Shown: one piece after another, positions 17,669 through 22,452 of the stretch
Layout: every line of letters starts with the position of its first letter
Numbering within the stretch: position 1 is the first letter of the stretch
From: Desulfovibrio sp. JY
GTDB taxonomy: Bacteria > Desulfobacterota > Desulfovibrionia > Desulfovibrionales > Desulfovibrionaceae
NCBI GenBank assembly: GCA_021730285.1
Contig: CP082962.1
Location: 1,364,001 to 1,428,000 of the forward strand
Length of the DNA stretch: 64,000 bases
Direction: 5' to 3'
Notes under the pieces: generated by a model
Seen by the model: the letters and a program-made list of their open reading frames with translations, nothing else
Databases searched by the model: none
What the model was told of the DNA's origin: nothing
Made by a program: the position numbers and the translations under genes

Positions 17669-19606
17669 ATGAAACGGAACATCTACCTGCGCACCATTCC
17701 CATCCCGGAGGCGCTGTCACGCGTCAAGGCCGTCCTTGACCGCAAGAAGCTGGTCGGCATCGAGCGCATCGGCTCCGACCGGGCGGCCGGACGCATCACG
17801 GCCGAGCCGGTCATTGCCCGCTATTCCTCGCCCACCTTCCACAGCGCCGCCATGGACGGCATTGCCGTGCGCGCCGCCGACACCTTCATGGCCCGGGAAG
17901 GTTCGCCCGTACGCCTTACTCCGGAAAAGGATTTCGTTTTCGTCAATACCGGCCATCCGCTGCCGAGCGCCTTCGACGCCGTGGTCATGATCGAAAACGT
18001 GGTCATGGACGGCGAGGCCGCCACCATCGAGGCCCCGGTTTCGCCCTTCACCCATGTCCGGCGCATCGGCGAGGACATCGTGGCCACGGAAATGGTGCTG
18101 CCCCGGCATCGGCGCATCTCGCCCTATGACATCGGCGCGCTGCTGTCCTGCGGAGCCTTCGAGATTCCGGTCTACGAGCGGATACGCATGCGCGTGATTC
18201 CCACCGGCGACGAGGTCATGGATTTTTCCGCCCGGCCCGTGCCCGGCCCGGGGCAGGTGGTCGAGAGCAACTCCATGCTGCTCGCCGCCCTGGCCGACGA
18301 GTGGGACATGACCTGCCTGCGCGTGCCCCCGGTGCCCGACGATCCCCAGGCCTTGGCCGACGCCCTCGAGGAAGGGCTCGATTCCGACGCCCACATCGTG
18401 GTCATGGTGGCCGGCTCCTCGGCCGGCAGCAAGGATTTCACCAAGGCCACCATCGCCAAATTCGGCGAGGTGCTGGTCCACGGCGTGGCCGCCATGCCGG
18501 GCAAACCGTCGCTTCTGGGCGTGGCCCGGGGCAAGCTCGTCGTCGGCGCGCCGGGCTATCCGGTCAGCTCCGTGGTCTGCTTCGAGCGCCTGCTCTATCC
18601 CCTGGCCTGCTGGCTGACCCGGTCCGAGCCCAAGAGCCGGCAGACCATTGCCGCGACGCTGGCCCGCAGCGTGCCGTCGCGCATCGGCATGACCGATTTC
18701 CTGCGCCTGTCCGTCGGGCAGGTGGGGGCGAGCTACGTGGCCCTGCCCCTTTCGCGCGGCGCGGGCAGCATTTCCTCCATGACCAAGGCCCAGGCCGTGA
18801 CCCAGCTGCCGCCCGAGGCCGAGGGGCTGGAATCCGGGGCCGTGGTCACGGCCGAGCTGCTGGTGGACGCCGGCGACCTGGCCCGCACCCTGGTCTGCGT
18901 GGGCAGCCACGACAACACCCTCGACATCCTGGCCGACATGCTCATGCGCCGCGATCCGGCCATGCGGCTGGCCTCCAGCCACGTGGGCAGCATGGGCGGG
19001 CTGATCGCGCTCAAAAACGGCTCGGCCATGATGGCCGGCTCCCACCTGTTCGACCCGGACACCCGGGATTTCAACTTTCCGTTTCTGGCCAAATACCTGC
19101 CCGGCCTGGACGTGCTCGTGGTCAACCTGGCCATCCGGGAGCAGGGGCTCATCGTCGCCCCGGGCAACCCCAAGGGCATCACCGGCGTGGCCGATCTGGC
19201 CCGCGACGGCGTGCGCTACATCAACCGCCAGCGCGGGGCCGGCACGCGTATTCTCTTCGACCACCACCTGGCGGAAGCCGGCCTGACCCCGGACCACATT
19301 TCCGGCTACGAGCGCGAGGAACACACCCACATGGCCGTGGCCGTCAACGTGAAGACCGGCTCGGCCGACTGCGGCCTGGGCGTGTATGCGGCGGCCCGGG
19401 CGCTCGGGCTCGATTTCGTGCCCCTGGCCCGGGAACGCTACGATCTGGTCATCCCCGAGGCCCTGCGCGACGATCCCAAGATCGAAGCCGTCATCGACGT
19501 GATCGCCGGCGAGTCCTTCAAGGAACAGGTGCAGGCGCTCGGCGGCTACGGCACGGCCTGGTCCGGCCGGGTCATGCGCCCGGGCATGGGCCTGCCCGAG
19601 GAGTGA
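17669..19606 (+). CDS. MoeA-like protein fused to a PBP-like domain
   Basis: A 645-residue two-part protein. Residues ~1-410 are MoeA-like (FHSAAMDGIAVRAADTF, VFVNTGHPLPSAFDAVVMIENV, RVIPTGDEVMDF, VMVAGSSAGSKDF, GVAAMPGKPSLLG). Residues ~420-640 form a periplasmic-binding-protein-like domain without a signal peptide (VGSHDNTLDILADML, RDGVRYINRQRGAGTRILFD, HMAVAVNVKTGSADCGLGV). The arrangement is known in anaerobes and is thought to be a cytoplasmic Mo/W-cofactor protein with a built-in oxyanion or cofactor sensor; the exact role is unproven. The ATG follows GGAGAAGGAG. Confidence 0.88.
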   Translation: MKRNIYLRTIPIPEALSRVKAVLDRKKLVGIERIGSDRAAGRITAEPVIARYSSPTFHSAAMDGIAVRAADTFMAREGSPVRLTPEKDFVFVNTGHPLPSAFDAVVMIENVVMDGEAATIEAPVSPFTHVRRIGEDIVATEMVLPRHRRISPYDIGALLSCGAFEIPVYERIRMRVIPTGDEVMDFSARPVPGPGQVVESNSMLLAALADEWDMTCLRVPPVPDDPQALADALEEGLDSDAHIVVMVAGSSAGSKDFTKATIAKFGEVLVHGVAAMPGKPSLLGVARGKLVVGAPGYPVSSVVCFERLLYPLACWLTRSEPKSRQTIAATLARSVPSRIGMTDFLRLSVGQVGASYVALPLSRGAGSISSMTKAQAVTQLPPEAEGLESGAVVTAELLVDAGDLARTLVCVGSHDNTLDILADMLMRRDPAMRLASSHVGSMGGLIALKNGSAMMAGSHLFDPDTRDFNFPFLAKYLPGLDVLVVNLAIREQGLIVAPGNPKGITGVADLARDGVRYINRQRGAGTRILFDHHLAEAGLTPDHISGYEREEHTHMAVAVNVKTGSADCGLGVYAAARALGLDFVPLARERYDLVIPEALRDDPKIEAVIDVIAGESFKEQVQALGGYGTAWSGRVMRPGMGLPEE

Positions 19607-19620
19607 TAGAGAGGGAAAAA

Positions 19621-19705
19621 CCGGGGGAGGGAACCCCTTTTTGAAAAAAGGGGTTCCCTCCCCCGGACCCCCACCCTCCCGAAAAACTTTCAAGGGTAAC
19701 ATCGC
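19621..19705. repeat. Interspersed repeat, solo half-unit (locus 4)
   Basis: Hairpin 19621-19666 with arms CCGGGGGAGGGAACCCC / GGGGTTCCCTCCCCCGG, followed by ACCCCCACCCTCC and the tail AAAAACTTTCAAGGGTAAC. It lies between the MoeA-PBP and GDT1 genes, which run in the same direction. Confidence 0.8.
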
Positions 19706-19739
19706 AATACAACAGTGAATAGTGAATGACGAGGGATGG

Positions 19740-20012
19740 ATGGACTGGAAACTGCTTTTCACGACCTTTGCCACCATTTTCGTGGCCGAACTCGGGGACA
19801 AGACGCAGCTCGCCTGCGTGCTGACCGCGGCCGATTCCCGCAAGCCCTGGATCGTTTTCGCCGGCTCGTCCCTGGCCCTGATCTCCACGAGCCTGCTTGG
19901 CGTCATCTTCGCGGAATTCATCTGCAACTTCGTCTCGCCGGAGATCATCAAGAAGGTCGCGGCAGTGGCCTTCGTGATCATGGGCGGGCTGATCTATTTC
20001 GACAAATTGTAG
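19740..20012 (+). CDS. Half-size GDT1/UPF0016 (TMEM165-like) cation transporter
   Basis: A 90-residue membrane protein with a single copy of the family signature, VAELGDKTQLACVL (ExGDK(T/S)), and three hydrophobic segments. Full-length GDT1 proteins have two such repeats; half-size versions are thought to pair up. The family moves Mn2+/Ca2+ in other organisms. The ATG at 19740 follows GAGGG; an in-frame ATG 18 bp upstream is possible. Its stop is 11 bp before the candidate selenoprotein gene. Confidence 0.85.
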   Translation: MDWKLLFTTFATIFVAELGDKTQLACVLTAADSRKPWIVFAGSSLALISTSLLGVIFAEFICNFVSPEIIKKVAAVAFVIMGGLIYFDKL

Positions 20013-20023
20013 GGGACAATCGC

Positions 20024-20266
20024 ATGGGACAGGAAACGGTCGTCTGCGACCTGCGCGAGCAGTGCTGAGGGCTGGGACTGGAGATAGGTTGGTATCTCCG
20101 CCTCTCCCGGGCCGACGTGCTGGAATTTCTGGTCGCCCCAAACGCCCGCCCCGTTCTCGAGGACCAGCTGGCCACCGTGTCCGGCTGGCGTCTCGACGTT
20201 AGGCAGGCCGACGGATTTTTGCGCGCGGTCTATACGCGCCATCCCCCCCGGGTCGCGGCCGGATAA
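20024..20266 (+). CDS. TusA/SirA-like candidate selenoprotein (UGA at codon 15)
   Basis: Reading through a single in-frame TGA (20066-20068) gives 80 residues, the size of TusA. The frame starts at ATG 20024 behind AGGGGA and ends at TAA 20264-20266. Its N-terminus is MGQETVVCDLREQC-U-GLGLEIGWYLRL. The predicted order beta-alpha-beta-alpha-beta-beta and the DLREQCUGLG block align with the TusA pattern D-x-R-G-x-x-C-P-x-P, placing the UGA exactly where the sulfur-carrying Cys of TusA lies. A hairpin with a GG-starting loop follows the UGA at the right distance for a bacterial SECIS. If read as Sec it is a Cys-Sec sulfur/selenium carrier; the alternative is a recent nonsense mutation. Confidence 0.65.
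20069..20108 (+). promoter_or_regulatory. Candidate bacterial SECIS hairpin
   Basis: A perfect 7-bp stem, GGAGATA (20080-20086) with TATCTCC (20093-20099), closes a GGTTGG loop. A lower stem GGGA (20074-20077) / TCCC (20105-20108) can also form. The loop starts 18 nt after the UGA, within the spacing reported for bacterial SECIS elements, and begins with G. The whole hairpin lies inside the coding frame, as bacterial SECIS must. Confidence 0.6.
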
Positions 20267-20322
20267 GCCCAGGGGCCGCCCGGCACCTGGACATTTCCCT
20301 TGAAATAAGCTGTAGAAATGGG

Positions 20323-22452
20323 ATGGGAAAAGTCCGGCACGATCCGTGGCAATGGTTTTTAAGCCGCTCCATCACCACCATCCTGACCGGCATTGTGCTG
20401 CTGGCCGCGCTGCCGGCCACGGGCTTCATCGTGGTGGCGAGCCTCGAAGCGCGCCATCAAGCCGAGCATAGGGCCTGGGACGACATCCGCAACCTGACCC
20501 GCAGTCTGGCCGCCCTCCAGCGGGGCGTGCTGCGCCAGGCCCGGGGCGTGCTCGTGGCCCTCGACCATACCGAAGAGGTTTGCGACCACCGCCCCCCCGC
20601 CTGTAACCGACTTTTTACCGACCTGCTGCGCGACCACCCCGAACTCTCCAACATCTTTCTCACCGACGCATCCGGCACGGTCGTCGCCTCAGGCCTGCCC
20701 GCCTTTCTCGGTGTCAATCTCGCCGACCGGAAGTACTTCCAGGAAGCGATGGGCACCCGCAGGCTGGGCGTCAGCAAGTTCATCCACGGCCGGGCCACGA
20801 AAAAGCCGATCCTGGCCTTCGCCCTGCCGCGCATGGACACCGACGGGCGGCTTCTGGGCGTCATCGGCCTGTCCTACTATCTCGAAGGCTACGACAAGTT
20901 CTTAAAGCGTATCGAGCTGCCGCAAAACACCCGGATCACGTTCCTCGACCCGGACGGGCTGCGCATGGTGGCTTACCCGCCGACGGAGTGGTTCCCCCTG
21001 GGCAGGCAGATCGTTCCCCGGCTCTGGGCGCGCCTCGCCAAGGACAGCGCCGACGAGGGGACCTTCATCTCGCCGCGCTATACCGGCGGAGACGGCCTGT
21101 TCAGCTTCTCCCGGCTGCGGCTTGCGCCAGGCGATCCGCCGTACATGACCATCCTCGTTTCCGCAGCCTGCAACGACGTGTTCGCCGACGCCGACAAGCA
21201 GTTGTGGCACGGCCTGCTCTCGGCCCTTGCCGCCACCGTATTCGCCCTGGTCATCGCCCAGGTGGCCGGGCGGGCGGCCCTTGGCCGGGGCATTGTCAGC
21301 CTGGTCGACGCGGCCGAACGGCTGGCCGGCGGGGACCTTTCCGCCCGGGACACGGCGGCGGCAGCCGGCAGCCTCGAGGTCCGCCGCCTCGGCGCAAGCT
21401 TCAACGCCATGGCGGACACCATCGAAGGCCGCGAGCGCGAACTGATCGAGACGGCGGCGGCCCTCGGACATATGCGCTCCATGCTTTCCAACATACTCGA
21501 ATCCATGCCCTCGCCCATCATCGGCATCGATCCCGCCGGCCGCGTCACCCACATCAACGGCAGCGCCCAGGCGCTGTTCGGCCTGGACGCCGAGGCCGCC
21601 CTGGGCCGTGAGGTGGGCGCATCCCTGCCGCAACTCTCCGGCTACATGCCCACTATGGAAACGGCCCTGCGCGAACGCCGCGCCCAGATCGTGGAAAAGC
21701 AGCCCCTGCCGCAAAACGGCAACACCCACCTCATGAACATGCTCTTTTACCCCCTCGTGGCCAACGGCACCGAGGGCGTGGTCATCCGCCTCGACGACGT
21801 CACCGAGAGCGAGCGCATCCGCGAAGCCGTGGAAAAGGCCCTTAAGGACAAGAACATCCTGCTCAAGGAAGTCCACCACCGGGTCAAAAACAACCTGCAG
21901 ATCATCCTCAGCTTCATCAGCCTGCAGGCCGACGAGGCGACCGACCCGGCCGAGCGGGAGCGTCTGCGCCTTTTAAGCACGCGCATCCGGTCCATGGCCC
22001 TGGTCCACCAGCAACTCTACAATCGCGAGGACGCCGCCACCATCGACATGGCCGAGTACGTCCGGAGCCTGGCCCAGGGAGTGCTGTCCGTGTTCAGGGA
22101 GCAGACGACCGGGGTGCGCCTTTCCTACGACACGCGGCCTTTCCCCTTGTCCCTCAACGCCGCCGTGCCCTGCGGGCTGCTCTTGAGCGAGCTTTTGACC
22201 AATGCCTGCAAGCACGCCTTTTCTCCCGGGCAAATAGGCGAGATCCGCGTGGGCTGCCGGCGGGAGGAGGGCATGGCCCGCTTCTGGGTGGAGGATACGG
22301 GGCCGGGGGTGCCGGCGGGATTCGATCCCGAGGCGGCGACGACCATGGGCATGACCCTGGTCAAGGAACTGGCCCGCCAACTGGAAGGGGAAGTAAGCAT
22401 CAGCCGGAGCCGCGAAGGCGGGGCACGCTTAGGGATCGTGTTTCCGGCCTGA
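20323..22452 (+). CDS. Membrane sensor histidine kinase (Cache-HAMP-PAS-HisKA_2)
   Basis: A 709-residue kinase: membrane helix ~15-40, periplasmic Cache-type sensor (~45-290, including DRKYFQEAMGTRRLGVSKF), second helix ~300-320, HAMP ~325-375, PAS ~390-490. The HisKA_2 phospho-acceptor block is EVHHRVKNNLQIILSFIS (~515-532), with a C-terminal ATPase containing LLTNACKHAF and WVEDTGPGVP. HisKA_2 kinases often signal to stand-alone receivers; none is adjacent. The Cache domain suggests a small extracellular ligand. The ATG at 20323 has a weak ribosome site. Confidence 0.88.
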   Translation: MGKVRHDPWQWFLSRSITTILTGIVLLAALPATGFIVVASLEARHQAEHRAWDDIRNLTRSLAALQRGVLRQARGVLVALDHTEEVCDHRPPACNRLFTDLLRDHPELSNIFLTDASGTVVASGLPAFLGVNLADRKYFQEAMGTRRLGVSKFIHGRATKKPILAFALPRMDTDGRLLGVIGLSYYLEGYDKFLKRIELPQNTRITFLDPDGLRMVAYPPTEWFPLGRQIVPRLWARLAKDSADEGTFISPRYTGGDGLFSFSRLRLAPGDPPYMTILVSAACNDVFADADKQLWHGLLSALAATVFALVIAQVAGRAALGRGIVSLVDAAERLAGGDLSARDTAAAAGSLEVRRLGASFNAMADTIEGRERELIETAAALGHMRSMLSNILESMPSPIIGIDPAGRVTHINGSAQALFGLDAEAALGREVGASLPQLSGYMPTMETALRERRAQIVEKQPLPQNGNTHLMNMLFYPLVANGTEGVVIRLDDVTESERIREAVEKALKDKNILLKEVHHRVKNNLQIILSFISLQADEATDPAERERLRLLSTRIRSMALVHQQLYNREDAATIDMAEYVRSLAQGVLSVFREQTTGVRLSYDTRPFPLSLNAAVPCGLLLSELLTNACKHAFSPGQIGEIRVGCRREEGMARFWVEDTGPGVPAGFDPEAATTMGMTLVKELARQLEGEVSISRSREGGARLGIVFPA

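Follow-up and report, generated by a model that had tools for sequence, protein, structure and literature searches.

A candidate TusA-like selenoprotein with an adjacent Cys-Sec pair in Desulfovibrio sp. JY and related sulfate reducers

The window analyzed here is a 64,000-nucleotide stretch of the Desulfovibrio sp. JY chromosome. It carries a short gene whose frame opens with ATG at 20024, closes with TAA at 20264-20266, and is interrupted by one in-frame TGA that is separated from the TAA by 65 codons. Reading and translation of 20024-20266 confirmed the 80-codon frame with a single TGA at codon 15 that had been reported in an initial annotation of this DNA. With the TGA translated as selenocysteine (Sec), the product reads MGQETVVCDLREQC-U-GLGLEIGWYLRLS... 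The features of the locus are as follows.

19722 to 20012, plus strand: half-size GDT1 transporter gene (Pfam PF01169, E 2.4e-22), 11 nt upstream of the selenoprotein gene

20011 to 20016, plus strand: likely ribosome-binding site AGGGGA, 7 nt ahead of the ATG, read from the sequence

20024 to 20266, plus strand: putative selenoprotein gene, 80 residues, predicted TusA-like fold (TGA-as-Sec translation; UGA conservation in the order; dN/dS of about 0.19 after the UGA)

20066 to 20068, plus strand: UGA, codon 15, very probably encoding Sec (Cys codon just before it, kept in 144 of 145 copies)

20080 to 20099, plus strand: putative bacterial SECIS hairpin, 7-bp stem (8 bp with a closing U-G, 20079 to 20100), 6-nt loop GGUUGG, loop 18 nt past the UGA

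The GDT1 gene encodes one PF01169 domain in 96 residues, and its stop codon occupies 20010-20012. The AGGGGA element agrees with the ribosome site noted earlier before the ATG. Codon use on both sides of the TGA had been described as good, but it is not so throughout: the ATA codon within the hairpin is rare here (14 of the 317 Ile codons in 15 long ORFs of the window), and its presence fits a constraint on the RNA. Farther upstream, a long inverted repeat seen by eye (19621-19666) lies between GDT1 and a gene ending at 19606. That gene, a 645-residue frame at 17669-19606, resembles by eye a fusion of MoeA with a substrate-binding-protein-like domain.

A homologue search with TGA translated as Sec had been suggested as a check on the selenoprotein assignment. 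Among 59 relatives, 35 were matched, and 35 of the 36 matching places contained exactly one TGA, the remaining one containing none. A profile search of the order matched at least 142 of 247 genomes, representing at least 32 of the 51 genera sampled. At least 140 genomes, among the matches listed, have a copy with TGA, and two matched genomes (G104 and G114) have, among the same matches, a sole copy without it; these genomes, like those with SelA discussed below, were tallied by hand from the match lists, with one genome per species. We read 145 UGA copies, one per genome, 140 of them from the order search and five more from the search of the 59 relatives. The UGA lies at the same codon of the same motif in all 145 copies. 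It is preceded by Cys in 144 copies and by Gly in one, so the Cys-UGA context noted in the window extends to nearly the whole family, and it is followed by Gly in 126 copies. Two copies (L078 and L263) contain one more TGA in frame, at the penultimate codon of the match, which is probably the real stop, and one (L079, in G207) has an extra in-frame TAA in mid-gene, reflecting either a sequencing error or a decaying gene.

In a sample of the phylum, 6 of 395 genomes were matched, all within the window's own family. A DNA pattern combining Cys-UGA with the hairpin gave at least 54 matches in 84,980 species genomes, and 54 of 54 encode the family with Cys-UGA; since the pattern itself held Cys-TGA, this agreement confirms the protein and not the codon. 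The pattern regains 53 of 62 known copies and its 54 matches are fewer than the order search would lead one to expect, indicating that this set is partial. It includes Solidesulfovibrio, Pseudodesulfovibrio, Humidesulfovibrio, Halodesulfovibrio, Nitratidesulfovibrio, Desulfonatronovibrio, Desulfonauticus and others, the named genera being ones that we take to belong to the Desulfovibrionales, and five matches labelled only Proteobacteria or Deltaproteobacteria. Over the 45 codons past the hairpin, the median dN/dS among 13 copies from the same genus is 0.19 (of 78 pairs, 77 could be used, and dS was close to 1 in many), which argues strongly against drift. Decay of the downstream part as a pseudogene had been named as an observation that would count against a selenoprotein; what we observed is the opposite, purifying selection.

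The initial annotation had pointed to a hairpin suitable as a SECIS element after the UGA. In the window this hairpin reads GGAGAUA-GGUUGG-UAUCUCC, and its loop begins with GG. The bacterial SECIS model, as set out in the portion of PMC13188914 drawn on here, calls for a loop of 3-9 nt, a stem of 4-16 bp, a G in the first two loop positions, a spacing of 16-37 nt and an MFE of at most -7.5. The window copy lies within all of these limits, with a stem of 8 bp counting the U-G pair, a loop of 6 nt, a spacing of 18 nt and a stability of -9.2 kcal/mol. So do 121 of the 145 copies, as compared with a mean of 15 of 145 (6-21) when the same proteins were recoded with synonymous codons drawn from the family itself. 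Many of the 24 copies that fall outside the strict limits form a group with a shorter stem. The sole UGA copy read with Gly in place of the Cys before Sec (L082, in G148) has a best hairpin of -6.5 kcal/mol, short of the strict limit. As a control, none of nine homologues without UGA lies within the limits, L071 falling narrowly short at -7.4 kcal/mol; the loci without UGA numbered ten among the matches listed, and L073, whose match has no start, was excluded from this control.

Base pairing within the hairpin is likewise conserved. In an alignment of 58 distinct rows, 92.9% of the cells belonging to the seven stem pairs are paired, and changes on both sides are observed at four of the seven. 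The observed pairing beats all 500 shuffles on four of five measures, and on the fifth, the number of further pair types, the observed value was reached in 23 of 500. In a control in which the pairing partner was slid along the sequence, a shift of +2 scores the same for covariation (0.173), though just 48% of the cells then form pairs. The innermost pair does not form in 12 of 62 copies. Codon choice follows the pairing: Ile at residue 21 is encoded by ATA in 39 of 45 copies, and the Tyr codon facing the Ile codon is TAT in 43 of 43, while Tyr facing Val is TAC in 38 copies and TAT in 18. Taken alone, the window hairpin is not significantly more stable than shuffled sequences (z -0.76). It is thus not unusually stable for its composition, and the SECIS claim rests on the family. 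An Rfam scan of 19950-20350 returned a single match with an E of 7.2, far under the gathering score.

The lack of selenocysteine machinery from the genome had also been named as evidence that would count against Sec. We found SelA, SelB, SelD and a tRNA-Sec with anticodon TCA, all present in the window genome. Its selD gene (L111, G000:C1:3713393-3714313) contains an in-frame TGA near the start, and from its sequence the selenophosphate synthetase looks like a selenoprotein as well. Across the order, and among the matches listed, SelA was matched in 137 of the 140 UGA genomes versus 80 of the 107 others (Fisher p 2.9e-8, uncorrected for kinship); 2 of these 217 matches lie under the family cut-off, and G100, counted as positive, has a weak match only. 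The three UGA genomes that lack a SelA match are incomplete or highly fragmented (G103, 77% complete; G111, 63%; G232, 820 contigs). In another set of genomes searched for SelA, G002 and G009 were without it, and SelB scored above the cut-off in G002 and not in G009. On these comparative grounds we consider it nearly certain that the UGA at 20066-20068 is decoded as selenocysteine via the SECIS element at 20080-20099 and the SelA, SelB, SelD and tRNA-Sec of the genome.

A further suggestion had been to look for Cys at the Sec position in relatives. Of the 146 copies read from the orthologous group, 145 contain UGA and one contains Cys-Pro-Cys, and in none is the UGA replaced by a plain Cys codon. 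The absence of a plain-Cys form among these 146 copies suggests that Sec may be chemically indispensable. The exception, L067 in G104, is an orthologue situated between MBL-fold and FMN reductase genes in which Cys-Pro-Cys replaces Cys-Sec, and it is the one homologue we found of a kind that had been raised beforehand as contrary evidence, namely with neither UGA nor a Cys exactly at this position. Two relatives in the same genus retain Cys-UGA. G104, which is 85% complete, is absent from the genomes with a SelA match in the order search. Together with the Cys-Pro-Cys, this is the pattern that one would expect had the use of selenium been lost.

Cys at the Sec position is found instead in distant paralogues, at least nine of which (L068-L074, L076 and L077) were among the matches listed, with a CG(L/T)(V/M/I)P-type motif. 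They are homologous to the Sec family by profile comparison (probability 98.9%, E 4e-17, based on eight of the nine loci, the Cys-type profile leaving out L067 and L073). Unlike the Sec family, they have Cys for Sec, preceded by another Cys in five of the nine and by Val, Thr or Met in four; none of the nine has a tested neighbour gene beside it on the same strand, and the eight that were tested have no SECIS. L068 and L069 gave no match in Pfam or NCBIfam.

The selenoprotein gene has a recurrent setting. In 106 of the 145 copies it is flanked immediately upstream by an MBL-fold gene and immediately downstream by an FMN reductase gene. In eight copies a glycosyltransferase-like gene (named by eye) takes the place of the MBL gene, seven have the FMN reductase only, and eight have none of the tested genes. 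As for genes within about 1.6 kb on the same strand, 117 copies have ComF there and 80 have a nitroreductase. The neighbour test used a few query proteins, with E at most 1e-6, on the same strand and within 250 nt upstream and 350 nt downstream. One representative of each neighbour is supported by Pfam (PF00753, PF03358, PF00881 and, for ComF, a phosphoribosyltransferase match). Of 118 FMN-reductase neighbours (those of 117 Sec copies and that of L067), 87 showed a CX2CX2CX3-8C motif in a crude scan, and we take motifs of the CX2CX2C type to be typical of iron-sulfur flavoproteins.

What kind of protein carries the Cys-Sec pair was addressed by structure prediction. An AlphaFold2 model based on a 30-row alignment (pLDDT 90.7, pTM 0.80) has the order beta-alpha-beta-alpha-beta-beta and places Sec15 two residues before helix 1. 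The top Foldseek match in the PDB is the SirA-like protein 3hz7 (E 0.012, TM 0.63/0.68), and the YeeE(TsuA)-YeeD(TsuB) thiosulfate-uptake complex ranks 20th (TM 0.70); no PDB match goes below an E of 1e-3, and the scores of unrelated folds are not far off. By sequence, no Pfam or NCBIfam model matches the window protein, none of 30 family members matches PF01206 or NCBIfam beyond scattered hits at E of 0.057 or higher to unrelated models, and the best hit in a profile search of PDB sequences is unrelated (E 0.13).

Profile-profile comparison with 26 TusA domains of relatives gave the Sec family a probability of 10-15%. Its local score of 19.5 does not reach the highest value among 40 column shuffles (24.3), and its global score alone exceeds all 40. 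The 30-row Sec profile reached 6-10%. Adding the Cys-type paralogues raised the probability to 14-21%, with local and global scores both above the 40 shuffles, and the Cys-type group alone reached 41% (global) and 71% (local, E about 4e-5). When the profiles are aligned globally, Sec falls on the TusA Cys, and the preceding D-x-R is aligned as well.

Like TusA/SirA (PF01206), the gene product has the size, the predicted beta-alpha-beta-alpha-beta-beta fold and a D-x-R-x-x-x-(C/U) block before helix 1. Unlike TusA/SirA, it has Sec for Cys, an extra preceding Cys, a conserved E-x-x-W-Y-L-R and W55, and neither a Pfam match nor the CPxP motif, its Cys-Sec being followed by Gly, His, Arg, Lys or Ala. 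The window genome also encodes two ordinary TusA-domain matches. The predicted fold and the motif position favor the original description of a TusA/SirA-like protein with Sec on the catalytic Cys; with the Pfam match and the CPxP both missing and a Foldseek E of 0.012 at best, we do not claim formal PF01206 membership. In the predicted TusA-like domain, Sec immediately precedes helix 1, at the site that the sulfur-carrying Cys occupies in TusA. Kinship judged from sequence is marginal, and for this reason we call the protein TusA-like and not a PF01206 member.

Taken as a whole, the locus probably encodes a Cys-Sec selenoprotein with a TusA-like fold, acting in redox chemistry or as a sulfur or selenium carrier, from a family outside the catalogues examined. 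Its substrate and role we infer as follows. The Sec15 selenolate would act as the nucleophile and accept sulfane sulfur, selenium or an oxidized thiol as an Se-S or Se-Se adduct, and Cys14 would resolve this adduct to give a vicinal selenenylsulfide, by analogy with the Gly-Cys-Sec-Gly site of thioredoxin reductase. In most relatives the neighbouring FMN reductase may supply the electrons that reset the Cys-Sec pair, and the MBL-fold hydrolase may act on a small thiol or persulfide partner. The mammalian thioredoxin reductase site likewise has adjacent Cys and Sec, with Gly following as in 126 of 145 copies here. In mammals, however, the site extends a large flavoenzyme at its C terminus (described in part of PMC10298544), whereas here it lies inside an 80-residue domain. 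As a tentative proposal, the family, which is almost purely Sec, would use this residue to carry sulfane sulfur or selenium, would bring its own Cys for resolution and would be reduced by a flavoprotein, forming a selenium-dependent sulfur-relay branch in sulfate reducers.

A serious rival is that the same selenoprotein has a plain thiol-redox role, as a disulfide, selenenylsulfide or peroxide reductase that carries no sulfur, and that its likeness to TusA is one of fold only. The vicinal Cys-Sec pair of 144 of the 145 copies points this way, as does its contrast with the at least nine Cys-type paralogues, where a preceding Cys occurs in only five of the nine listed. So do the adjoining flavin enzymes, the missing CPxP, the weak sequence kinship to TusA and the Cys-Pro-Cys of the single UGA-less orthologue, which could be a dithiol. 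We nevertheless regard a purely redox role as rather unlikely, given that Sec falls on the sulfur-carrying Cys of TusA in the global profile alignments and that the top structural match is SirA-like. Sulfate reducers also have heavy sulfur traffic, which speaks for a carrier.

The initial annotation had linked the protein to the GDT1 transporter, and it could in principle serve this cation/proton antiporter. The gene does lie 11 nt behind GDT1 in the window, and GDT1 is upstream in 16 of the 145 copies, 13 of them in the window's genus and three in one other genus. No GDT1 was detected close to the remaining 129 copies, however, and the arrangement with MBL upstream and FMN reductase downstream prevails in the 106 copies noted above. 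Within the window's genus, a close homologue of the FMN reductase is present in 12 of 14 genomes (G002 and G006 have weak partial matches only), and in all 12 it belongs to an MBL-FMN-ComF cluster with no selenoprotein gene in between. In the window genome this MBL-FMN pair persists at about C1:2,128,561-2,130,474, 0.74 Mb away from the selenoprotein gene. Most simply, the gene appears to have left the MBL-FMN operon in this genus and moved to GDT1, behind which it now stands, while the gap at its old place closed. On this reading the linkage is a lineage-specific arrangement, and we judge service to GDT1 to be improbable. That the UGA is a true stop, ending a 14-residue leader or marking a pseudogene, with the frame behind it either unused or started on its own, is scarcely credible: the frame is formally interrupted and L079 has a further TAA inside it, but no other stop codon occurs at the position in 145 copies, the protein is conserved on both sides with a dN/dS of 0.19, and the SECIS pairing, the codon choice and the association with SelA speak against it. 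We reject the leader-peptide and pseudogene readings on the grounds of conservation, dN/dS and SECIS.

The Sec-based reading adds a candidate family to the bacterial selenoproteome. Table 1 of a 2026 catalogue (PMC13188914), covering 119 families, has no TusA/SirA selenoprotein entry, and the terms TusA and SirA are absent from the accessible text of that paper, of a 2022 review and of the paper describing deep-Sep (PMC12013277). More broadly, we found no TusA/SirA selenoprotein family in print in the main-text portions covered of a literature including PMC13188914, PMC12013277, PMC9312934, PMC2432076, PMC5322559, PMC1914089, PMC5029168, PMC11097638 and PMC10298544. According to the deep-Sep paper, in the part consulted, that method may fail to identify selenoproteins correctly when they lack Cys homologues, which all known selenoproteins seem to have (PMC12013277). 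Since none of the orthologues found has Cys at the codon for Sec, the present family would fall in a blind spot that the deep-Sep authors admit, and searches relying on Cys/Sec pairs would pass it over. Should the carrier role prove true, selenium chemistry would enter the sulfur-relay proteins of sulfate reducers.

Other observations connect proteins of this type with selenium. YedF has a SirA-like domain and is tied to selenium by genome context (PMC2432076 and PMC5322559, in the portions seen); there its SirA-like domain is described with a CPXP motif, unlike the selenoprotein here, and no YedF selenoprotein appears in those parts of the selenoprotein tables examined. The YeeE/YedE transporter family does stand in the 2026 selenoprotein table (PMC13188914, as seen in part), with Sec in the transporter and not in a TusA domain. 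Selenium depletion in Methanococcus maripaludis raises the transcript levels of a TusAD sulfurtransferase system by 4.5-4.6 log2-fold (PMC11097638, in the section drawn on here), a response that offers another hint tying TusA-type proteins to selenium.
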